A DNA stretch of 64,000 nucleotides from positions 186,001-250,000 of the forward strand of contig MUZD01000001.1 of assembly GCA_002155105.1 (NCBI GenBank), written 5' to 3'. The notes beneath the pieces were generated by a model that saw nothing but the letters and a program-made list of their open reading frames with translations, did no database searches and was not told the origin of the DNA. The DNA comes from Sedimentibacter sp. SX930. GTDB taxonomy: Bacteria > Bacillota > Bacilli > Lactobacillales > Aerococcaceae. Position numbers and translations under genes: made by a program. This document shows, piece after piece, positions 3,481 through 63,151 of the stretch. Position 1 is the first letter of the stretch; the number at the start of each line of letters is the position of its first letter.

Positions 3481-3596
3481 GGTTTCCCGTTTAATGAATC
3501 CAAACGCTGAATTTTGATTAGATAAGTATGGAAAATGTAATGGTATACAAAGATTTTATAAGGTTGGGACTATATTAAGAAAAGGATGATCATAAA

Positions 3597-4370
3597 ATGG
3601 TACAAAAAGCAGAATCTAACCCAAGCACAAAAGTTCAATCGATAGATCGGGCCTTATCGATCCTGGAAACATTAGCGGACTACCCTAGCTTGAGCCTGAT
3701 GGAACTGAGCGAAAAAGTCCATCTGCATAAAGCAACGACCCACCGTTTGGTGAATTCCTTGATGGAAAACGGCTATATCGACCGCAATCCTGATACCAAG
3801 CAATATCGCATTTCCTTGAAGATGTTCCATCTCGGGAACAAACGCGTCCACAACATCGACTTCTTGAATGTGGCCAAAAGCATGATCCGCCAGTTGTCGG
3901 ATGACACGAAACAGACCGTGCATCTGGTTGTGGAAGACAATGATGAAGTGCTCTACATCGATAAGTATGGTGAGTCCCGCGGCGTGCGGATGCAATCGAA
4001 GATCGGTACGAAAGCGCCGCTTTATTGCACTGCGGTCGGGAAAGCGCTCTTGAGCACCCGTCAAAACGCTGCCGTCCGTGAATATTGGGACAGTATCGTT
4101 CCGGAACAGAAGACTGGACGCACGATTACCACTTACGAAGAACTCGTCAACGAACTGGATGAAATCAGAAGGAATGGTTACGCCCTCGACGACGAGGAGT
4201 TTGAGGAGGGCATCGTCTGCATCGCTGCAGCGTTCTCGAGCGCAAGGGAAGTTGCCGCAGGTGCGATCAGCATCTCCTTGCCGTTGTCGGACATGGTCGA
4301 TAAAGACTTCTATACAGGTAAAGTTTTGGAGTATTCCACAAAAATATCACATTTTCTGGGTCACTTTTGA
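3597..4370 (+). CDS. IclR-family transcriptional regulator (probable KdgR-type)
   Basis: A 257-residue regulator with an N-terminal winged helix-turn-helix (about residues 12-75, including SLMELSEKVHLHKATTHRLV) and a C-terminal IclR effector-binding domain (about 85-250; TAVGKALLS and DDEEFEEGIVCIAAAF are typical). Such proteins usually repress sugar-acid or aromatic-acid catabolic genes until a small acid binds. It lies between the transporter and the KDPG aldolase operon, and similar operator sites lie in front of all three units, so it is the obvious local regulator; a 2-keto-3-deoxygluconate-type inducer is inference. Ribosome site AAAGGA lies just upstream of the ATG, and a strong terminator follows. 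Confidence 0.9.
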   Translation: MVQKAESNPSTKVQSIDRALSILETLADYPSLSLMELSEKVHLHKATTHRLVNSLMENGYIDRNPDTKQYRISLKMFHLGNKRVHNIDFLNVAKSMIRQLSDDTKQTVHLVVEDNDEVLYIDKYGESRGVRMQSKIGTKAPLYCTAVGKALLSTRQNAAVREYWDSIVPEQKTGRTITTYEELVNELDEIRRNGYALDDEEFEEGIVCIAAAFSSAREVAAGAISISLPLSDMVDKDFYTGKVLEYSTKISHFLGHF

Positions 4371-5316: not shown

Positions 5317-6732
5317 ATGTCATTTATTCATGACGACTTTATGTTACAGTCCGAAACGGCCAAAAAACTTTACCACGAATATGCGGAAAACATGCCCATC
5401 TTCGATTACCACTGCCATTTGGTCCCGCAACAGATCGCTGAAGATTATGAGTTCGAAAACATTACGGAATTATGGTTGGGCGGAGATCATTACAAATGGC
5501 GCGCGATGCGTGCGATGGGAATTCCGGAAGAAAAAATCACCGGCGATGCTTCTCCTGAAGAAAAATTTGAAGCTTGGGCCTACACTGCTGAAAATGCAGT
5601 AGGGAATCCGTTGTTCCACTGGACAGCCTTGGAATTGAAAAAGTACTTCCATATAGAAGAAACGCTTACCAGTGCCAACTGGAAGGAAATCTATGCGGAA
5701 TGCAACCGCGTGTTGAAAGAAGAAAAGCTGACCGCACGCCAATTGATCAAAAATTCCAACGTCACCTTCATTTGCACGACAGACAACCCAACGGATACGT
5801 TGGAATGGCACAAAGCAATCGCTGAAGACGAGACATTCGATGTGGCGGTCGTTCCCGGTTTCCGTCCAGATGAAGCTTTCGCTATCCAGGATGCAGCCAA
5901 GTTTGCTGGATTCATCGGAAAAATGCAAGAGGCGACCGGCAAAGAAATGACGACATTCGCTGAGTTGTTGGACGGAATGGAAGAGCGGATCCAATATTTT
6001 GCGGATCATGGTTCGAATGTTTCCGACCACGGTTTATCCCAAATCTACTATGCTGAAGCTACGGATGAAGAGATTGAAGCCATCTATGCCAAAGCGATCG
6101 CAGGGGACAGCATCTCGGAAGCGGAATATGCAAAATACCAAACACGCTTGTTGGTGGAATTGGGCAAAATCTATGCAGCCAAAGACTTCGTGATGCAATT
6201 GCACTTCGGCGCTATCCGCAACAACAATAAGCGCATGTTTGCTAAATTAGGCGCGGATGCCGGCTTCGACTCCATCCAAGATCAACCGAACGTATCCTAT
6301 GCTTTGAACAATCTGCTTGGTGCAATGGACCTGACGAATGAACTGCCTAAATTCATCGCCTATAATCTTGACCCTACTTATTTCGACTTAGTGGGTACGG
6401 CAATCACGAACTTCCAAGTGAATGACAAAGGCATCAAGAGCAAAGTCCAAATGGGTTCCGGTTGGTGGTTCAACGATACCAAGTACGGTATGCTGAAACA
6501 ATTGAAATCATTATCGGAAGCAGGCTTGTTGATGAATTTTGTCGGCATGCTAACAGATTCAAGAAGCTTCATCTCCTATACGCGTCATGAGTATTTCCGC
6601 CGCATCCTTTGTGATTTCATCGGTGATCTCGTGGAACGTGGAGAAATCCCGAATGATGCTAAGTTACTTGAAAAGCTGATCACGAACATCAGCTACAACA
6701 ATGCTGTAGAATACTTTGATTTTAAAAAATAA
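5317..6732 (+). CDS. uxaC: Uronate isomerase (glucuronate/galacturonate isomerase)
   Basis: A 471-residue amidohydrolase-fold enzyme, the usual UxaC length, that isomerises D-glucuronate to D-fructuronate and D-galacturonate to D-tagaturonate. Typical features are MPIFDYHCHL near the N-terminus with the metal-binding HxH, DHYKWRAMRAMG, LQLHFGAIRNNN and, toward the C-terminus, LTDSRSFISYTRHEYFRRILC. It follows the aldolase by 43 bases with no promoter or terminator between, so it is cotranscribed. Only the glucuronate branch (fructuronate, mannonate) is completed by the next two genes, which suggests glucuronate as the principal substrate. Confidence 0.95.
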   Translation: MSFIHDDFMLQSETAKKLYHEYAENMPIFDYHCHLVPQQIAEDYEFENITELWLGGDHYKWRAMRAMGIPEEKITGDASPEEKFEAWAYTAENAVGNPLFHWTALELKKYFHIEETLTSANWKEIYAECNRVLKEEKLTARQLIKNSNVTFICTTDNPTDTLEWHKAIAEDETFDVAVVPGFRPDEAFAIQDAAKFAGFIGKMQEATGKEMTTFAELLDGMEERIQYFADHGSNVSDHGLSQIYYAEATDEEIEAIYAKAIAGDSISEAEYAKYQTRLLVELGKIYAAKDFVMQLHFGAIRNNNKRMFAKLGADAGFDSIQDQPNVSYALNNLLGAMDLTNELPKFIAYNLDPTYFDLVGTAITNFQVNDKGIKSKVQMGSGWWFNDTKYGMLKQLKSLSEAGLLMNFVGMLTDSRSFISYTRHEYFRRILCDFIGDLVERGEIPNDAKLLEKLITNISYNNAVEYFDFKK

Positions 6733-7850: not shown

Positions 7851-8696
7851 ATGACAAGCCCATTCGTTCATGATTTTACCGATAAAGTAGTAGTAGTAAC
7901 AGGTGCTGGCGGCGTTTTATGCTCTTATTTCGCGAAAGAATTCGCTAGAGCAGGCGCTAAAGTAGCCCTTTTGGACTTAAACTTGGATAACGCACAAGGA
8001 TACGCTGATGAAATCGTAGCCGAAGGCGGCATCGCTAAAGCGTTCAAAGCCAACGTATTGGAATTGCCAAGCCTGCAAGCAGCTAAAGAAGCTGTAGTAG
8101 CTGAATTAGGCGAAGTGGATATCTTGGTAAACGGCGCAGGCGGCAACAACCCGCGCGCAACAACCGACAACGAATACCATGAAACTGATCTTCCTGAAGG
8201 AACAAAAACGTTCTTCGACTTGGAACAAAGCGGCATCGAATTCGTCTTCAACTTGAACTTCTTGGGTACAGTGTTGCCTACACAAGTTTTTGCTAAAGAT
8301 ATGGTCGGCCGTCCAGGCGCTAACATCATCAACATCTCAAGCATGAACGGTTTCACACCATTGACCAAAATCGTTGCTTACTCAGGCGCGAAAGCTGCTA
8401 TCTCCAACTTGACTGAATGGTTGGCTGTACACTTCTCGCACGTAGGTATCCGTGTCAATGCGATCGCTCCTGGTTTCTTGGTTTCAAAACAAAACCAAGC
8501 GTTGTTGTTCAACGAAGATGGCACACCGACTCCTCGTACAGGCAAAATTCTGAACGGCACGCCAATGGGCCGTTTCGGCGAACCGCATGAATTGATCGGC
8601 GGCTTGCTGTTCTTGGCAGATGAAAAAGCTGCAAGCTTTGTGAACGGCGTCGTATTGCCGATCGATGGCGGCTTCAACGCGTATTCAGGCGTATAA
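7851..8696 (+). CDS. uxuB: SDR-family D-mannonate oxidoreductase (fructuronate reductase)
   Basis: A 281-residue short-chain dehydrogenase/reductase. The N-terminal nucleotide-binding segment is VVVTGAGGVLCSYFAKEFA, NGAGG follows, and the catalytic residues are visible as the serine in NISSMNGF and the tyrosine/lysine pair in YSGAK; VVLPIDGGF is the usual C-terminal signature. From its place after uxuA it should reduce fructuronate to mannonate with NAD(P)H. It is unrelated in fold to E. coli UxuB, the SDR type being the one used in Bacillus-like uronate operons. A hairpin with a T run follows directly. Confidence 0.88.
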   Translation: MTSPFVHDFTDKVVVVTGAGGVLCSYFAKEFARAGAKVALLDLNLDNAQGYADEIVAEGGIAKAFKANVLELPSLQAAKEAVVAELGEVDILVNGAGGNNPRATTDNEYHETDLPEGTKTFFDLEQSGIEFVFNLNFLGTVLPTQVFAKDMVGRPGANIINISSMNGFTPLTKIVAYSGAKAAISNLTEWLAVHFSHVGIRVNAIAPGFLVSKQNQALLFNEDGTPTPRTGKILNGTPMGRFGEPHELIGGLLFLADEKAASFVNGVVLPIDGGFNAYSGV

Positions 8697-8712
8697 GTTT
8701 AGGTAATTGAAT

Positions 8713-8767
8713 AGGGCAGATAGAACGAAATGTGTTGCACAGTTCTTCTCTATCTGCCCTTTTTTTG
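8713..8767 (+). terminator. Hairpin terminator/attenuator after uxuB
   Basis: Arms AGGGCAGATAGA (8713-8724) and TCTATCTGCCCT (8749-8760) are followed by T7. Only about 25 bases separate its T run from the next start codon, so the downstream genes probably depend on read-through; it may set a lower level for the HAD and GH3 genes. Confidence 0.8.
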
Positions 8768-8791
8768 ATATCAAGTTAGGAGAGAAAAATT

Positions 8792-9640
8792 ATGTCTACA
8801 CACCCAACACAATTTACGAAACAAAAACAATTCTTAGTATGCGTCGATTCCGACGGCTGCGCAATGGATACGATGAACGTGAAACATGAACGTTTCTTCG
8901 GACCTTTGGCAGCTGACGAGTACGGCATCAAAGATCGCGAAACTTTCTTGGCTGACTGGAACCGCATCAACCTGTTCTCCAGCACACGCGGCATCAATCG
9001 CTTCAAAGCATTGGTCTTGACGCTGATTGAAGCACAGGAAAAAGGCGAAGACATCGGCGATATTACGGCACTGACCGCTTGGGCAAACAATGCGCCATCG
9101 TTATCGAATGCTTCCCTGGAAGCGGAGATCGCGAAAGCATCTTCCGAAGATTTGGAAAAAGCTTTGGTATGGAGCAAGAAAGTCAACGAAGGCATCGAAA
9201 CGGAATTAGCGGGCGAAGATAAGCCTTTCCCTGGCGTTCTGGAAGGACTGACAAAAATCCATGGCCTGACGGATGTCGCAATCGTAAGCTCAGCCAACAG
9301 CGAAGCTTTGAACAGCGAATGGAACAGACACAATCTGATGCCGCAAGTTGACGTAGTCTATGGACAGGAAGTCGGCAGTAAAGCGGACGCAATCGCTGAT
9401 CTGTTGACGAAAGGTTATGCAGCGGACGAAATTTTGATGGTCGGGGACGCGCCTGGAGATGAACAAGCGGCAACGGTAAATGGCGTATTCTATTATCCGA
9501 TTCTTTTCGGGAAAGAAGAATTCTCATGGGAACGTCTTAGCAATGAAGCGATCGAGAAATTCTTGAACAAAGAATATGCAGGAGCTTATCAAGAAAAAGT
9601 GCTTGGGGAATTCCATGCTTTATTGGCTCAATTCGATTAA
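8792..9640 (+). CDS. HAD-superfamily hydrolase
   Basis: A 282-residue haloacid-dehalogenase-type hydrolase, most likely a phosphatase. Motif I is VDSDGCAMDT with the nucleophile/acid aspartate pair, motif II is the serine in IVSSANSE, a lysine is present in EVGSKADAI, and motif IV is MVGDAPGD. A long helical cap (about residues 40-150) sits between motifs I and II. The specific substrate cannot be read from sequence. It sits in the uronate locus between the mannonate oxidoreductase and a glycosidase, suggesting a sugar-phosphate clean-up or dephosphorylation role. GGAGAG precedes the ATG. Confidence 0.8.
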   Translation: MSTHPTQFTKQKQFLVCVDSDGCAMDTMNVKHERFFGPLAADEYGIKDRETFLADWNRINLFSSTRGINRFKALVLTLIEAQEKGEDIGDITALTAWANNAPSLSNASLEAEIAKASSEDLEKALVWSKKVNEGIETELAGEDKPFPGVLEGLTKIHGLTDVAIVSSANSEALNSEWNRHNLMPQVDVVYGQEVGSKADAIADLLTKGYAADEILMVGDAPGDEQAATVNGVFYYPILFGKEEFSWERLSNEAIEKFLNKEYAGAYQEKVLGEFHALLAQFD

Positions 9641-9692
9641 AATCATTTCATGATCGCAAAATAGAAACATTACGTTATCAGGAGGAAAAAAA

Positions 9693-11435
9693 GTGCCAAA
9701 ATTAGTTGATTTAAAAGCAAAACCGTACAATCTTAGCGACAAACAGGTCGCTTGGGTAAACGAAACGATCGCTGATATGACAGATGAGGAAAAAGTAGGA
9801 CAATTGTTCACGAACCTATTCTTCTTCGGAAATGATGCCTTCTCAGGAAACGACTTCACAAATCAAGAAATCATCGAAAAATTCCACATCGGTGGCGCAC
9901 GCTATCACGGCAATTCAAAAGAAGATATCCAAGATTTATTGAACGAATTGCAATCCATGTCCAAAATTCCTCTATTGGTAGCTGCCAACTGCGATGCAGG
10001 CGGAAACGGCGCATGCGGCGAAGGAACATACATCGCTTCAGGTGCACAGTGTGAAGCTGCTGGCGACCCACAAGTTTCCTATCATGCCGGGCTGGTTTCT
10101 GCCCGTGAAGAAAAAGCATTGGGCGTCAACGTCAACTTCGACCCATGTGTGGACATCCTTTACAACTGGAGAAACACAATCGTCAACACGCGTGCTTATG
10201 GTACGGACGCAGAAACAGTCATCAAATATACGAATGCATATTTGGATGGCTTGACTGCTGAAAACGGCGAAAACATGGAAGATGGCGTTATCCAATGCAT
10301 CAAGCATTTCCCAGGAGACGGAACGGAAGAACGCGACCAGCATTTGGTGTTGGGAATCAATGAATTGAGCCCTGAAGAATGGCGCGCTTCATTCGGTAAA
10401 GTTTACCAAAACCACATCGACCGCGGCGTTGAAATGATCATGGCTGGACACATTGCGGTACCTGCTTTGCAAAAAGAATTGAACCCTGCTTTGGAAGACA
10501 AAGACATCATGCCGGCTACTCTGGCTGAAGAATTGATCCAAGATGAATTGAAGGGCGAACTGAACTTCAACGGACTTGTCATCACTGATGCAACGCACAT
10601 GCTGGGCATGACATCCGCTATGCGCCGTGAAGATTACGTCCCAAAAGCAATCGCTGCTGGTTGCGATATGTTCCTGTTCTTCAACAACATCGAAGAGGAC
10701 TTCGGTTTCATGTTGAAAGGCTACCAAAACGGTGTCATCACCGAAGAACGTTTGACCGATGCTTTGCGTCGTATCTTGGGCTTGAAAGCTAAATTGCACT
10801 TGCCTGAAAAACAAGCAAACGGCACATTGTTGCGCACGCGCGAAGACTTGAACGTCATCGGCTGTGAAGAACATCTGCAATGGAGAGCTGAAGCTGCTGA
10901 TAAAGGGATTTCTTTGATCAAAGATACCCAAAACAACTTGCCGATCAACCCTATTGATCACAAACGCATCCGCTTGTACATTTTGGAAGGCGAAAAAGGC
11001 GGAATCAATGATGCTGGTTCAGCAACGCAACAACTCTTCATTGATGAATTGACAAGCCGCGGCTATGAAGTGACTGTCAACGAACGCGGCTCACGCGTTA
11101 AAGGCGCTACTTTGAAATACCGTGATGAAGTGGACTTCGCTTTGGAAGTTTCTGATATCGTAGGATACGGCGCACAAAACAACTACCGCATCCAATGGAG
11201 TACTGCCATGGCAAATGAAGTTCCTTGGTTTGTCTGGGAAGTTCCGCATGCATTCGTATCATTGAACTTCACGACACATCTGCATGATGCGACAATGGTG
11301 AAAACATTCATCAACGCATACCACAACAACAAAGAAACAATCAAACAAGTCATCGACAAACTAGAAGGCAAATCCGAATTCAAAGGCGGCCACAACGACC
11401 TAGTTTGGACCGACAAATGGCAAGCCAAATTATAA
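9693..11435 (+). CDS. Cytoplasmic family 3 glycoside hydrolase, NagZ-like
   Basis: A 580-residue protein without signal peptide. The N-terminal GH3 TIM barrel (about 20-375) contains FHIGGARYHG, the motif KHFPGDGTEERDQH, and the nucleophile region VITDATHMLGMT; a C-terminal alpha/beta GH3-type domain (about 400-540) follows. The D-x-H dyad after KHFPG is the acid/base signature of the NagZ (beta-N-acetylhexosaminidase) branch, here with D in place of the usual H in the PGHG part. GTG start with GGAGG eight bases upstream. Adjacent to uronate catabolism, it may free sugars from an imported oligosaccharide containing uronic acid and amino sugar; that substrate is inference. Confidence 0.82.
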   Translation: MPKLVDLKAKPYNLSDKQVAWVNETIADMTDEEKVGQLFTNLFFFGNDAFSGNDFTNQEIIEKFHIGGARYHGNSKEDIQDLLNELQSMSKIPLLVAANCDAGGNGACGEGTYIASGAQCEAAGDPQVSYHAGLVSAREEKALGVNVNFDPCVDILYNWRNTIVNTRAYGTDAETVIKYTNAYLDGLTAENGENMEDGVIQCIKHFPGDGTEERDQHLVLGINELSPEEWRASFGKVYQNHIDRGVEMIMAGHIAVPALQKELNPALEDKDIMPATLAEELIQDELKGELNFNGLVITDATHMLGMTSAMRREDYVPKAIAAGCDMFLFFNNIEEDFGFMLKGYQNGVITEERLTDALRRILGLKAKLHLPEKQANGTLLRTREDLNVIGCEEHLQWRAEAADKGISLIKDTQNNLPINPIDHKRIRLYILEGEKGGINDAGSATQQLFIDELTSRGYEVTVNERGSRVKGATLKYRDEVDFALEVSDIVGYGAQNNYRIQWSTAMANEVPWFVWEVPHAFVSLNFTTHLHDATMVKTFINAYHNNKETIKQVIDKLEGKSEFKGGHNDLVWTDKWQAKL

Positions 11436-58889: not shown

Positions 58890-60077
58890 ATGGCAAAAGT
58901 AAAATTCGACCGTTCAAAGCCCCATGTAAACGTTGGTACAATCGGACACGTTGACCATGGTAAAACAACATTAACTGCAGCTATCACAACAGTTTTAGCT
59001 AAAAAAGGGTTCGCTGAAGCATCTAACTATGCTGCAATCGACAACGCTCCAGAAGAAAGAGAACGTGGTATCACGATCAACACTTCTCACGTTGAATACT
59101 CAACTGAAACTCGTCACTACGCTCACGTAGACTGCCCAGGCCATGCTGACTATGTTAAAAACATGATCACTGGTGCTGCACAAATGGACGGAGCTATCTT
59201 AGTAGTTTCTGCTGCTGATGGTCCAATGCCACAAACTCGCGAGCACATCTTGTTGTCTCGTCAAGTTGGTGTTCCTTACATCGTAGTATTCTTGAACAAA
59301 GTCGACATGGTTGACGATGAAGAATTATTAGAATTAGTTGAAATGGAAGTTCGTGACCTGTTAACAGAATACGATTTCCCTGGCGACGATGTTCCTGTAA
59401 TCGCTGGTTCAGCTTTGAAAGCTCTTGAAGGCGACCCAGCTTACGAAGAAAAAATCTTGGAATTGATGGCTGCTGTTGACGAATATATCCCAACTCCAGT
59501 TCGTCAAACTGACAAGCCATTCATGATGCCTATCGAGGACGTATTCTCAATCACTGGACGTGGTACTGTTGCTACAGGCCGTGTTGAACGTGGACAAGTC
59601 CGCGTTGGTGACGAAGTTGAAATCGTCGGTATTGCTGAAGAAACTAAGAAAACAGTTGTTACCGGTGTTGAAATGTTCCGTAAATTATTGGATTACGCTG
59701 AAGCTGGCGATAACGTAGGAGCTTTGTTACGTGGTGTTACACGTGAGCAAATCCAACGTGGTCAAGTATTGGCTAAACCAGGTTCAATCACTCCACATAC
59801 AACTTTCACTGCTGAAATTTATGTACTTTCAAAAGAAGAAGGCGGACGTCACACTCCATTCTTCACTAACTACCGTCCACAATTCTATTTCCGTACAACT
59901 GACGTTACAGGCGTATGTAACTTACCAGAAGGCGTTGAAATGGTAATGCCTGGCGACAACGTTACTATGACTATCGAATTGATCCACCCAATCGCTATCG
60001 AAGAAGGAACTAAGTTCTCTATTCGTGAAGGTGGACGTACAGTAGGCGCTGGCGTTGTAGCTTCAATCACTAAATAA
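58890..60077 (+). CDS. tuf: Translation elongation factor Tu
   Basis: A 395-residue GTPase delivering aminoacyl-t[12 protein letters not shown] (G1), [20 protein letters not shown] (G3), NKVDMVDD (G4) and SALKALEG (G5) are present, with full domains II and III. Strong codon bias. Ends the str operon before two terminators. Confidence 0.98.
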
Positions 60078-60100
60078 TTTTATTTCAAAATAAAATTCGA

Positions 60101-60139
60101 AAAACGGGAGCCTCGGCTTCCGTTTTTTTTTTTTTTTGA
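60101..60139 (+). terminator. Terminator 1 after tuf
   Basis: AAAACGGGAGCC/GGCTTCCGTTTT followed by an unusually long T run. Confidence 0.92.
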
Positions 60140-60184: not shown

Positions 60185-60522
60185 TGTTGGAGTTGGAGCA
60201 AATGGGCTGCCGAAGAGAGAAACACAGAATTTTTACCATATCAGCTTTATCCAGATTAATAATCATATTATATAGAAGAAAGAGGATTTTCGACCGGGTG
60301 TACTGAATCTAACCATTGCTGGCATATTCGTGTTTTTGCTGATATATTGCCCAATTTTGAGCATTTTTTGTTGTGACTTCATTCCATGTGAGCTATCTTC
60401 ACGCGATTTACATGATTAAATCGATTTTATGACGTACTCGCAGCACTTATTGAGCGCGTACTAACCTTTTATTGCTGGTAGGGCAACTTGCACAGCCTCC
60501 AGCCGCAAGAGCGCCTTGTTCA

Positions 60523-60550
60523 TGTCACATTTCATGACGCGAGTCGTCAT
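60523..60550 (+). promoter_or_regulatory. GlnR/TnrA-like box and inverted repeat upstream of the Amt-PII gene
   Basis: TGTCACATTTCATGACG (60523-60539) matches TGTNA-N7-TNACA with one mismatch. It overlaps the perfect repeat ATGACG-N5-CGTCAT (60534-60550). The gene follows about 95 bases later, with a weak TTGGTG/TGTAAA promoter near 60556-60585. Confidence 0.5.
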
Positions 60551-60644
60551 CATTTTGGTGATTTTCTTTTTTTTAGGGTGTAAAGTAAGAAACATCACAA
60601 AGCATTAATACACCAGAAAAATTATCAGCAAAAGGAGAATCTAT

Positions 60645-62438
60645 ATGGAGAACATTAATTATGCAGATACAACTTTCGTCTTCCTCGCAACAATCCTTGT
60701 CATGATGATGACGCCGGCTTTATCCCTATTCTACGGAGGGATGGTCCGGAAGAAAAATGTCCTCAGCACGACGATGCACAGTTATGCTGCCATCGCTATC
60801 GTTTCTATCCAATGGCTATTATTCGGATATTCTTTTGTATTCGGAGGCGACTCAAAATTTTTCGGCGATTTGTCCTTCACATTACTCAACGGTGTAGGCT
60901 TCACGCCTATTGATTACGCACCGACCATTCCGCATCAACTATTCATGATGTTCCAGATGGCTTTCGCAATCATCACCCCAGCCTTGATTTCAGGAAGCAT
61001 CGCGGAACGCATGAAGTTTCCCGCATTCCTTGCCTTCATCCTTTTATGGACGACTTTCGTCTATGATCCGATTGCCCACTGGATCTGGGGAAATGGCGGT
61101 TGGATCCGCGAACTGGGTGCACTCGACTTTGCTGGCGGGAGCGTCATCCATATCAGTTCAGGTATATCGGCTCTGGTAGCAGCCATTTATCTAGGCAAAA
61201 GAAAAAACCACGATTCCGTCAAGCCGCATAATATTCCGATGACGATGATCGGTGCCGGCCTTCTGTTGTTCGGCTGGTTTGGCTTCAACGCCGGAAGCGC
61301 TCTGGCGATCAACGATATTGCACTGGATGCCTTCATCACTACAAACACTGCCGCTGCCACAGCCGGCATAAGCTGGATGATCTGTGAATGGATCATCCAC
61401 AAGAAACCGACTGCTCTTGGATTTGTCAGCGGAATCGTTGCTGGTCTGGTTTCCATCACGCCTGGCGCCGGATTCGTCAGCCCGGTTTCAGCCTTAGCCA
61501 TCGGTTTCATCGGCGGTATCGTCTGCTTCTACGGCGTATCCGTTCTGAAGAAGAAATTTGATTATGATGATGCACTTGATGCATTCGGTTGCCATGGTAT
61601 CGGAGGAATCTGGGGTGGAATCGCAACTGGTATCTTCGCATCAAGCAGCATCAATCCTGCCATTGAAGGCGGGTTGGTAGATGGCAGTGCCTCACTTTTG
61701 ATTGCAGAAGTTGTCAGCATTTTAGCTGTGCTTGCATACGCGGGTATCATGTCCTATCTACTGTTGAAACTAATCAGTAAATTCATGCCAATGCGTGTCT
61801 CTGCAGAGGAGGAAGAAATCGGATTGGATTATGCTCTCCATGGCGAAACAGCATATGGCAGTCTCGCCGTAGCTTTGAGTGATAACAATTATTCAAATAC
61901 AGCTGCGTCTGTCGTGCCGGGCGAATTGAGAACGGCTTTCCAAAAATTGCAGGAGCGCACTTTCGGAAGCAACGATCAAGAATTGGCCTTCGCGAATGTT
62001 TCTCTGGAAGACCTTAAAAAGTCAGTTGTTGTGGAATACCAAGCCTCCGGCGCAACAACAGGCGGTCAAGATGCACAAACTAAAATCACCAAAATTGAAA
62101 TCATCACGAACGAAAGTAAATTTGAAGGTTTGAAAAAAGCACTGAACAGCATCGGCATCACAGGCATGACCGTTTTCGATGTATTCGGCTACGGCATGCA
62201 AAAAGGGCATAGCACCTATTATAGGGGCGTCGAGACCGAAGCCGACCTGCTGCCAAAGATCCGTGTCGAAGTTGTCGTCAGCACGGTTCCCGTCCAAGAA
62301 GTAGTCGATGCTGCCAGAAAAGCATTGTACACAGGCAACATCGGGGATGGAAAAATTTTCATATATAATGTAGAAAACGTCATCCGCGTCAGCACAGGTG
62401 ATGAAGGCAAGAAAGCTTTGGAATATCCAAACGAATAA
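60645..62438 (+). CDS. Ammonium transporter with fused C-terminal PII signalling domain
   Basis: A 597-residue fusion. Residues 1-400 form an Amt channel of about 11 membrane helices, with the pore histidine pair in GGSVIHISSG and FGCHGIGGIWGG and the usual cytoplasmic tail ending EEEIGLDYALHGETAYG. After a linker (about 410-481) residues 482-597 are a complete PII domain: ITGMTVFDVFGYGMQKGHS, the T-loop STYYRGVETEADLLPK, B-loop TGNIGDGKIF and C-loop VIRVSTGDEG. Compared with E. coli GlnB, the uridylylated Tyr51 is Thr, Arg38 is Met and Arg103 is Ser, while Gln39, Arg47, Lys58 and Lys90 positions are kept. A channel carrying its own regulator is implied. It sits between the str and S10 operons. 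Confidence 0.93.
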   Translation: MENINYADTTFVFLATILVMMMTPALSLFYGGMVRKKNVLSTTMHSYAAIAIVSIQWLLFGYSFVFGGDSKFFGDLSFTLLNGVGFTPIDYAPTIPHQLFMMFQMAFAIITPALISGSIAERMKFPAFLAFILLWTTFVYDPIAHWIWGNGGWIRELGALDFAGGSVIHISSGISALVAAIYLGKRKNHDSVKPHNIPMTMIGAGLLLFGWFGFNAGSALAINDIALDAFITTNTAAATAGISWMICEWIIHKKPTALGFVSGIVAGLVSITPGAGFVSPVSALAIGFIGGIVCFYGVSVLKKKFDYDDALDAFGCHGIGGIWGGIATGIFASSSINPAIEGGLVDGSASLLIAEVVSILAVLAYAGIMSYLLLKLISKFMPMRVSAEEEEIGLDYALHGETAYGSLAVALSDNNYSNTAASVVPGELRTAFQKLQERTFGSNDQELAFANVSLEDLKKSVVVEYQASGATTGGQDAQTKITKIEIITNESKFEGLKKALNSIGITGMTVFDVFGYGMQKGHSTYYRGVETEADLLPKIRVEVVVSTVPVQEVVDAARKALYTGNIGDGKIFIYNVENVIRVSTGDEGKKALEYPNE

Positions 62439-62440
62439 GC

Positions 62441-62478
62441 AATAAGGGACTGTCTCATGCGAGATGGTCCCTTATTTA
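62441..62478 (+). terminator. Terminator after the Amt-PII gene
   Basis: AATAAGGGACTGTCTC/GAGATGGTCCCTTATT around ATGC, then TTAATTTT. Confidence 0.93.
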
Positions 62479-62669: not shown

Positions 62670-62750
62670 ATATTGGTACGGCATTCATGGTTATGAATAA
62701 TGTATTGGGGACCGTTCATTCGGGAACTGCAGCTAAGAGACGAGAGGTTG

Positions 62751-62787
62751 CGACACACCCGGTCGCTTTGTCACGGCGGGTGTGCCG
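62751..62787 (+). promoter_or_regulatory. S10 operon leader hairpin
   Basis: CGACACACCCG (62751-62761) pairs with CGGGTGTGCCG (62777-62787) at 10 of 11 positions. It lies in a leader of about 165 bases; a role in ribosomal-protein feedback control is possible by analogy with the L4-controlled S10 leader but not shown. Confidence 0.5.
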
Positions 62788-62842
62788 GGGAATTTTCGTG
62801 GAGCTAGTCTTATGAATTACATCTGACGAAGGAGGGAACAAC

Positions 62843-63151
62843 ATGGCAAAACAAAAAATACGTATTCGTTTAAAAGCATATGAACACCGTGCTCTTGATC
62901 AATCAGCGGATAAAATCGTGGAAACAGCAAAAAGAACGGGAGCTACCGTTTCTGGTCCGATTCCATTGCCGACTGAAAGATCACTATACACAGTGATTCG
63001 TGCTACTCACAAGTACAAAGATTCTCGTGAGCAGTTCGAAATGCTTACACACAAACGTCTAATCGACATCATCAACCCAACAACAAAAACTGTTGACGCT
63101 TTGATGAAACTTGACTTACCAAGCGGCGTAGACATCGAAATCAAATTATAA
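62843..63151 (+). CDS. rpsJ: 30S ribosomal protein S10
   Basis: A 102-residue protein of the 30S head, also the NusE antitermination factor. [20 protein letters not shown] and [12 protein letters not shown] are typical. First gene of the S10 operon, GAAGGAGGG upstream. Confidence 0.98.

Follow-up and report, generated by a model that had tools for sequence, protein, structure and literature searches.

An Ammonium Channel Fused to a PII Regulator in Trichococcus, with Domains Likely of Different Histories

AmtB and its partner GlnK are the standard textbook example of channel block by a soluble sensor, which docks on the channel and later departs. The gene analyzed here joins the two kinds of protein in one chain. 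It lies in a 64,000-nucleotide stretch of contig MUZD01000001.1 (positions 186,001 to 250,000, forward strand; hereafter the window), deposited under the name Sedimentibacter sp. SX930; judged by its sequence, the source genome is that of a Trichococcus. A single uninterrupted frame on the forward strand of the window runs from an ATG at 60645 to a stop at 62438 and encodes 597 residues, comprising a complete Amt channel (Pfam Ammonium_transp, PF00909, residues 11-404, E 1.9e-129; 472 bits against a cut-off of 343 for NCBIfam amt, TIGR00836) and a complete PII domain (Pfam P-II, PF00543, residues 482-585, E 3.3e-25, 88.8 bits against a curated cut-off of 25). An earlier note on this DNA had described one open frame with an Amt channel, a linker of about 70 residues and a PII domain; the 597 codons indeed hold both Pfam domains in full, and the linker is real, its length corrected to a measured domain-to-domain gap of 77 residues. 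The coding features are the following.

60645..62438, forward strand: amt-PII fusion gene, 597 residues (open reading frame, Pfam)
60675..61856, forward strand: Amt channel domain, residues 11-404 (Pfam; pore-residue alignment)
61857..62087, forward strand: linker, residues 405-481, fast evolving (Pfam boundaries; ratio of nonsynonymous to synonymous substitution, dN/dS)
61914..61997, forward strand: linker stretch V424-N451 (VPGELRTAF...ELAFAN), resembling the linkers of the clade-2 fusions introduced below (shuffle test)
62088..62399, forward strand: PII domain of the GlnK type, residues 482-585 (Pfam, alignment)

The frame is conserved across the genus. The nearest named record, from T. alkaliphilus, is 98% identical across all 597 residues, and full-length matches at 75-97% identity occur in eight further Trichococcus records. 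All nine Trichococcus records fetched contain a frame of identical length, 597 codons, without an internal stop, which rules out a sequencing or assembly artefact or a chance open frame and upholds the uninterrupted reading between the domains. Purifying selection holds the Amt and PII domains, and the linker is loosely constrained: in six Trichococcus pairs, dN/dS is 0.02-0.05 for the Amt part (five pairs, the sixth not being computable), 0.03-0.06 for the PII part (all six) and 0.11-0.54 for the linker (five pairs), rough values because dS is saturated in several.

All eight pore residues examined are present (F107, W148, D161, H169, F214, N215, S218 and H317), which we take to supply the twin histidines, the Phe gate and the equivalents of W148 and D160. 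The PII domain, numbered in the GlnB/GlnK scheme with Aquifex PII as reference, has M38, Q39, K40, R47, T51, K58, K90, R101 and S103 and keeps the GDGK segment; the T-loop Arg47 equivalent is residue 527 of the protein and the Ser103 equivalent residue 583. The residues named in the earlier note, Arg47, Gln39, Lys58 and Lys90 as kept and Met38, Thr51 and Ser103 as changed, all reappear in the alignment.

These positions were compared between 31 fused PII rows (30 distinct, L034 and L079 being one gene of genome G070) and 24 separate PIIs. Arg47 is universal in both sets (31/31 and 24/24); Lys58 is found in every fused row and in 22 of the separate proteins, and Lys90 in every fused row. Tyr51 is present in none of the fused rows and in 13/24 separate PIIs, and residue 38, hydrophobic in 31/31 fused rows, is Leu in ten of the separate ones. 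B. subtilis GlnK (4r25, 4rx6), the best solved relative of the window PII, has L38 and I51. The earlier description of an altered T-loop therefore does not hold, because a hydrophobic residue 38 and the lack of Tyr51 occur in each of the 30 distinct fusions and likewise in B. subtilis GlnK; the combination of Met38 and Thr51 as a special T-loop is ruled out by the same traits in all fused rows and many separate PIIs. The change of Arg103 to Ser, by comparison, turns out to be a lineage mark, with S103 in 20/31 fused rows versus 0/24 separate PIIs; the other 11 fused rows keep R103 and have K or Q at 101. R101 and R103 occur together in no fused row versus 22 of the 24 separate PIIs, the two exceptions being Bacillus-type GlnKs. 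Among the residues compared, loss of Arg101 or Arg103 is the only real mark of fused PIIs. The window PII, with R101 and S103, thus lacks one of the two C-terminal arginines; this does not exclude it from the PII family, because B. subtilis GlnK lacks one as well.

What do these substitutions imply for the switch? In Af-GlnK3, which blocks by Arg47 insertion, 2-oxoglutarate spreads the T-loops, and a salt bridge between residues 38 and 101 belongs to the ADP state and must break for ATP to replace ADP (PMC3198391). Since Gln39 and Lys58 are kept in the window PII and a 38-101 bridge is impossible, a 2-oxoglutarate response is likely retained, and the reading of ADP and ATP may be different. 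E. coli GlnK with the Y51A substitution continues to associate with AmtB and dissociate from it as nitrogen status changes, the modification affecting the dynamics (PMC4274968); in view of this and of the behavior of Af-GlnK3 (PMC3198391), loss of Tyr51 need not stop gating. That the usual uridylylation is impossible here, as the earlier note proposed, is borne out by Thr51 together with the lack of a GlnD match (PF08335) in the source genome, in a search whose positive control responded in 3/14 genomes.

The window gene has two companions in its own genome, where all three Amt matches (PF00909) lie in Amt-PII fusion frames: the window gene itself, a copy on contig C29 (588 residues; Amt 75% and PII 77% identical to the window protein) and a copy on contig C26 (559 residues counted from its ATG; 36% and 56%, respectively). 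A glnA gene and a gene that reads as glnR-like are neighbors, some 8 kb away from the C26 copy. PF00543 matches six places in this genome, namely the three fusions, a tandem pair of small genes and one singleton, and no free GlnK-type PII was found in that search. Each of 13 Trichococcus genomes holds one fusion or more that was confirmed to be a single open frame; outside the fusions and one broken copy in G068, none of the 13 has a PII match better than E 1.9e-17. Amts lacking a PII were sought in the source genome only.

The tandem pair of PII-like genes (L004, 1135-1818, contig C25) adjoins a TauC/SsuC-like ABC permease gene and a gene that reads like a substrate-binding lipoprotein; similar paired PII matches occur in seven other Trichococcus genomes of the genus profile search. 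The singleton, a PII-like protein of 221 residues, lies beside a UmpA/UmpB-like antiporter gene (L006, 1141-3261 for the two genes, reverse strand, contig C25), in which models of the UmpA and UmpB subunits both match within one chain, below their cut-offs. In G068, counted as the same species, the C29-type gene (L074, 3027-4529, reverse strand) is broken into several frames, including one of 171 residues with a PII match at E 1.3e-24; it is either a pseudogene or a product of read errors.

Fusions of this kind, called uncommon in the earlier note, can now be counted. Among 295 sampled Lactobacillales genomes, at least 15 carry one confirmed as a single open frame (four Trichococcus, eight from family f2, one from f6, and two with decayed channels from f3 and f8; families f1, f2, f3, f6 and f8 are designated by code only); among 299 sampled Bacillota genomes, at least 13 do, the source genome and 12 others. 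Six additional fusions from f3 (L128-L133) lie beyond both samples. The counts exclude rows that span both domains but contain internal stops, as well as the long-frame row of G732 (L117). Open-frame length alone was not accepted as proof: ten candidates with lengths of about 530-560 (L134-L143) resolved into separate amt and glnK frames on inspection, and fusions hinted at by joined tblastn matches in Margulisiibacteriota (L015) and Succinivibrio (L017) likewise translate as separate amt and glnK genes.

In two genes a decayed Amt domain is fused to an intact PII (L144 in G141, 8832-10457, and L145 in G199, 8087-9751, both on the reverse strand). The amt model scores them at 55 and 135 bits, respectively, against the cut-off of 343. 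In an alignment that is unsure at such distance, G141 has lost six of the eight pore residues, both histidines included, and G199 five, with both histidines kept; 11 hydrophobic stretches remain in each Amt domain, and the fused PII keeps R47, Q39, K58 and K90. A like Amt domain, with 6/7 covered pore residues lost, is found in G263 (L146, 1-796, reverse strand), where the contig ends before any PII. In these three genomes, which represent two families, the gene comes after OppB/OppC-, OppA-, OppD- and OppF-like genes in the same order, and in the two longer stretches a peptidase-like gene precedes them; the OppF of G141 is split over two frames. The names of the L145 OppF and OppA are best NCBIfam matches below curated cut-offs, and the other names were assigned by reading. 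Among the matches listed, the decayed-channel fusion is the only PII match of G199.

The channel and the PII of the window protein group with different relatives. The first trees used 8 of the loci L001-L050 and 41 of L051-L099; left out of the latter were 54, 59, 60, 61 and 77 as duplicates, 74 as broken, 78 as another kind of PII, and 70, a separate PII of G143 missed by the motif scan. The first Amt tree retained the decayed rows, on a very long branch, the second omitted L071, L072 and L079, and the second PII tree omitted L079. In the PII trees, a single clade unites all fused PIIs with the Bacillus GlnK pair and with L096, a separate PII (support 99/98, and 100/98 in the larger tree), and the window-type PII clusters with further fusions from Lactobacillales (95/91 in the first tree, 90/87 in the larger), the six f3 fusions of the larger tree standing next to this group but outside it. 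In the Amt trees, the five Trichococcus channels of the window and C29 types fall into a different clade (clade 1; 100/100), where their neighbors are 28 separate Amts; all but one of these (L016), 27 in total, are accompanied by a separate PII gene in the stretch of DNA fetched. One clade of all fused PIIs is not rejected (p-AU, from the approximately unbiased test, 0.55 in the first tree and 0.48 for 36 fused PIIs in the larger one), whereas one clade of all fused Amts is (p 1.9e-44 with the decayed rows; p-AU 2.9e-4 for 34 fused Amts without them); Amt-PII fusions are thus not a single lineage in both domains. Forcing the window-type Amt together with the clade-2 fused Amts of f1, f2 and f6 is rejected (3.2e-41), as is forcing the window-type PII together with the clostridial GlnK group to which the partners of its nearest Amts belong (9.6e-9), or with the separate Lactobacillales PIIs (4.6e-4). 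We discarded a further test, which joined the window PII to GlnKs paired with clade-1 Amts (p 2.4e-56), as badly posed, those GlnKs not being one group.

The clade-2 fusions, from other Lactobacillales and Bacillota (L062-L069, L073, L080-L091 and L128-L133), have the same domain order and PII lineage as the window protein, and those in the residue comparison, L128-L133 being outside it, likewise show a hydrophobic residue 38, no Tyr51 and one arginine of 101/103. They differ in the channel, their Amts being 31-38% identical to that of the window; its six nearest separate Amts are 57-60% identical. The window PII is 65-75% identical to those of clade-2 fusions L062-L068, 50% to L098, 46% to B. 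subtilis GlnK, and at most 51% to separate PIIs other than L096 (68%). L096 (G414, 1027-1383) is, among separate PIIs, the closest to the fused lineage, and its frame overlaps that of the following clade-2 Amt (1292-2662). For the linker stretch, the score against f2/f6 fusion linkers was reached by 6 of 1000 shuffles for the window, by 1 of 1000 for L010 and by none of 1000 for L021.

Because the domain trees and the identities are discordant, and the linker is partly clade-2-like, we propose that, in the Trichococcus lineage, a clade-1 (AmtB-like) channel acquired a linker–PII cassette of the clade-2 kind by grafting. The window protein is accordingly likely a chimera, whose PII and channel have different histories; the linker probably shares its origin with the PII, in fusions with clade-2 Amts, and backs the graft in part. 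Duplication after the graft would have produced the window copy and the copy on contig C29. Among the sequences compared, a clade-1 Amt with this PII lineage is seen only in Trichococcus.

Alternatively, a Bacillus-like amtB-glnK pair with a clade-1 Amt may have fused in place in the Trichococcus ancestor, the likeness of its PII to those of the other fusions reflecting shared Bacilli descent and convergence. The Bacillus-type GlnK (L098, 4r25) does belong to the same large PII clade, the Amt partner of L098 is in clade 1, and a grouping of Bacillus GlnK with the window-type PII is weakly rejected or not rejected (p-AU 0.033 and 0.083). We nevertheless regard fusion in place as unlikely: the window PII is closer to clade-2 fusion PIIs (up to 75% identity) than to either Bacillus-type protein, it has S103 with R101 in common with them where Bacillus GlnK has N101 with R103, and the L021 linker resembles clade-2 linkers more than any of its shuffles did.

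The region before the fusion gene contains putative binding sites for the nitrogen regulator GlnR, whose box we take to be TGTNAN7TNACA, and the gene is bounded by terminator-like hairpins.

60099..60128, forward strand: terminator-like hairpin after tuf, 13 pairs followed by a T run (pattern match)
60387..60403, forward strand: second, weaker GlnR-box-like site TGTGAGCTATCTTCACG, one mismatch to the box (motif scan)
60523..60539, forward strand: GlnR-box-like site TGTCACATTTCATGACG, one mismatch, about 120 bases before the start codon (motif scan)
60633..60637, forward strand: ribosome binding site AGGAG (read from sequence)
62441..62476, forward strand: terminator-like hairpin of the fusion gene (pattern match)

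The box at about -120 is present in all ten Trichococcus window-type loci, perfect in six and with its last A replaced by G in four, the window included; the box at about -257 has at most one mismatch in 8/10. Across 24 upstream regions of fusions, which are related and not independent, we count 23 perfect boxes versus 0.39 in single-base shuffles, and 15 of the regions contain at least one. A GlnR site before amtB has been described across almost all Bacilli (PMC3412718), and the window gene would, by these putative boxes, be under GlnR control.

The fusion gene is flanked by tuf (58890-60077) and rpsJ (62843-63151), both named by reading, and the terminator-like hairpins on either side suggest that it is probably a transcription unit of its own, apart from the str operon. 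It lies on the same strand as tuf and rpsJ in the window and in L007, L008 and L009, its orientation being reversed in L010, L012, L014 and L021, as well as in L011, judged by rpsJ alone; L013 was not assessable. By this comparison of gene order, the fusion gene is inverted in place between tuf and rpsJ within Trichococcus. Inverted arms outside the gene were seen only in L021 among three regions scanned (16 nt, 88%, 3591-3606 and 6578-6593) and may be due to chance. Near the fusion gene Rfam gives four matches, none above its gathering score, among them a weak S10-Clostridia ribosomal leader before rpsJ (62727-62829; 22.3 bits versus 35.1). A promoter scan returned seven sites versus 5.2 in shuffles.

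We propose the following model for the window protein, from sequence comparisons through which we infer trimer geometry, gating in cis, ligand response, GlnR binding and the direction of the graft. The fusion would be a GlnR-controlled ammonium channel of chimeric origin, blocked in cis by a tethered GlnK that is switched by 2-oxoglutarate, ATP and ADP, a reading to which we assign a probability of about 0.7. The chain would form an Amt trimer, below which the three PII domains would assemble into a PII trimer; the linkers of the fusions, at 44-83 residues counted from the end of the Amt tail, appear to pose no obvious barrier to such a placement. When ammonium arrives and 2-oxoglutarate falls, the channel would be closed by the three T-loops, whose Arg47 would enter the pores. 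Binding of ATP and 2-oxoglutarate would withdraw the T-loops, with the PII staying attached. The scheme has neither a uridylylation layer nor a free GlnK. The earlier note had likewise suggested a self-gating channel; the likely chimerism, the place of the gene as one of three fusions in its genome and the finding of no free GlnK are new.

Several observations weigh against this model or parts of it. Loss of one C-terminal arginine in all 31 fused rows may make the ligand response weak or changed. As to the graft, the PII tree was built from few columns; the window PII joins the Lactobacillales fusions with support of 95/91 and, in the larger tree, 90/87, where the six f3 fusions stay outside; and a grouping of this PII with Bacillus GlnK is at best weakly rejected. 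Except for the first test of fused Amts, the groups were chosen after seeing a tree, which flatters the p-values. Neither C29-type linker resembles the f2/f6 donor linkers (900 and 417 of 1000 shuffles), and among 20 linker comparisons only those of the window, L010 and L021 with f2/f6 stand out. For GlnR control, each of the window's own boxes carries a mismatch, and nine of the 24 upstream regions have no perfect box (the window, L010, L011, L014, both C29-type genes, L069 and two decayed-channel genes). A window-wide scan at one mismatch is not enriched, with 18 sites found versus 25 expected, so the GlnR argument rests on conserved position.

It is also conceivable that the protein serves mainly as a sensor in the membrane and less as a channel, its tethered PII reporting ammonium flux or nitrogen status to a partner, for instance GlnR or glutamine synthetase, with pore block secondary. 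Binding partners of GlnK include TnrA in B. subtilis and GlnR in S. mutans (PMC3412718), an Amt module became a sensor in the Amt-histidine kinase Ks-Amt5 (PMC5764959), and decayed channels that keep a PII occur in related families. A pure sensor, however, would need neither the eight intact pore residues nor the strong constraint on the Amt domain, and Arg47 is kept in every fused row, though in every separate PII too; we therefore hold a primary sensor role to be even less probable than fusion in place. Most improbable is a tethered PII that has lost its switch and serves as a fixed partial plug or structural part, since, although R101 and R103 are never kept together in fused rows and the window has Met38 where in Af-GlnK3 a 38-101 salt bridge has to break before ATP can take the place of ADP (PMC3198391), Q39, K58, K90 and the GDGK segment are kept in a slow-evolving domain and B. 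subtilis GlnK, without Arg38 and Arg101, is still described as sensitive to ATP, Mg2+ and 2-oxoglutarate (PMC3412718).

How far does this architecture extend? The position of the decayed-channel genes suggests, as a guess, a membrane-anchored PII for peptide uptake. More broadly, and tentatively, we speculate that the linker–PII unit may be a portable cis regulator that moves between membrane proteins, from clade-2 Amts to the clade-1 AmtB of Trichococcus and to decayed channels at the ends of Opp operons, where it would tune peptide uptake by nitrogen; GlnK signaling in Trichococcus might then be wholly membrane-bound, without a soluble GlnK. We think this somewhat less likely to be true than false.

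The fusion can be set beside several known systems. With AmtB-GlnK pairs, as in E. coli or as NrgA/NrgB in B. subtilis, the window protein shares the two domains, the pore residues and Arg47, Gln39, Lys58 and Lys90. Unlike these pairs, it is one polypeptide with a fixed 1:1 stoichiometry, has no Tyr51 and has Ser103 in place of Arg103, in a genome where GlnD and a free GlnK-type PII were not found. Ks-Amt5 also combines an Amt trimer with a C-terminal signaling domain in one chain, but there the channel is repurposed as a sensor with a kinase output, (PMC5764959), whereas the window protein has intact pore residues and carries, as its extra domain, the protein that normally inhibits the channel. 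LacS of streptococci and lactobacilli, with its fused EIIA-Glc-like domain, likewise joins a transporter to a usually separate regulator and differs in transporter, regulator and signal (PMC10710835). Among the literature matches listed, no paper deals with an Amt-PII fusion, and the available parts of an Amt review (PMC10433425) and of PMC10710835, PMC3831643 and PMC12918730 do not mention one. The 2012 survey of Bacilli, in its accessible text, records no GlnK in the Lactobacillaceae analyzed and does not mention the fusion (PMC3412718).

A sensor that cannot leave its channel asks what release is for, and whether GlnK must be free for other targets, as well as how switching proceeds when the local concentration is very high. 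The fusion offers a fixed 1:1 complex for structural work, from an organism in which three of these proteins, and no free PII of the GlnK type, were found, and a natural test object for the shut-off of ammonium uptake. If the mixed ancestry is true, a PII cassette works on channels that share just 31-38% identity.

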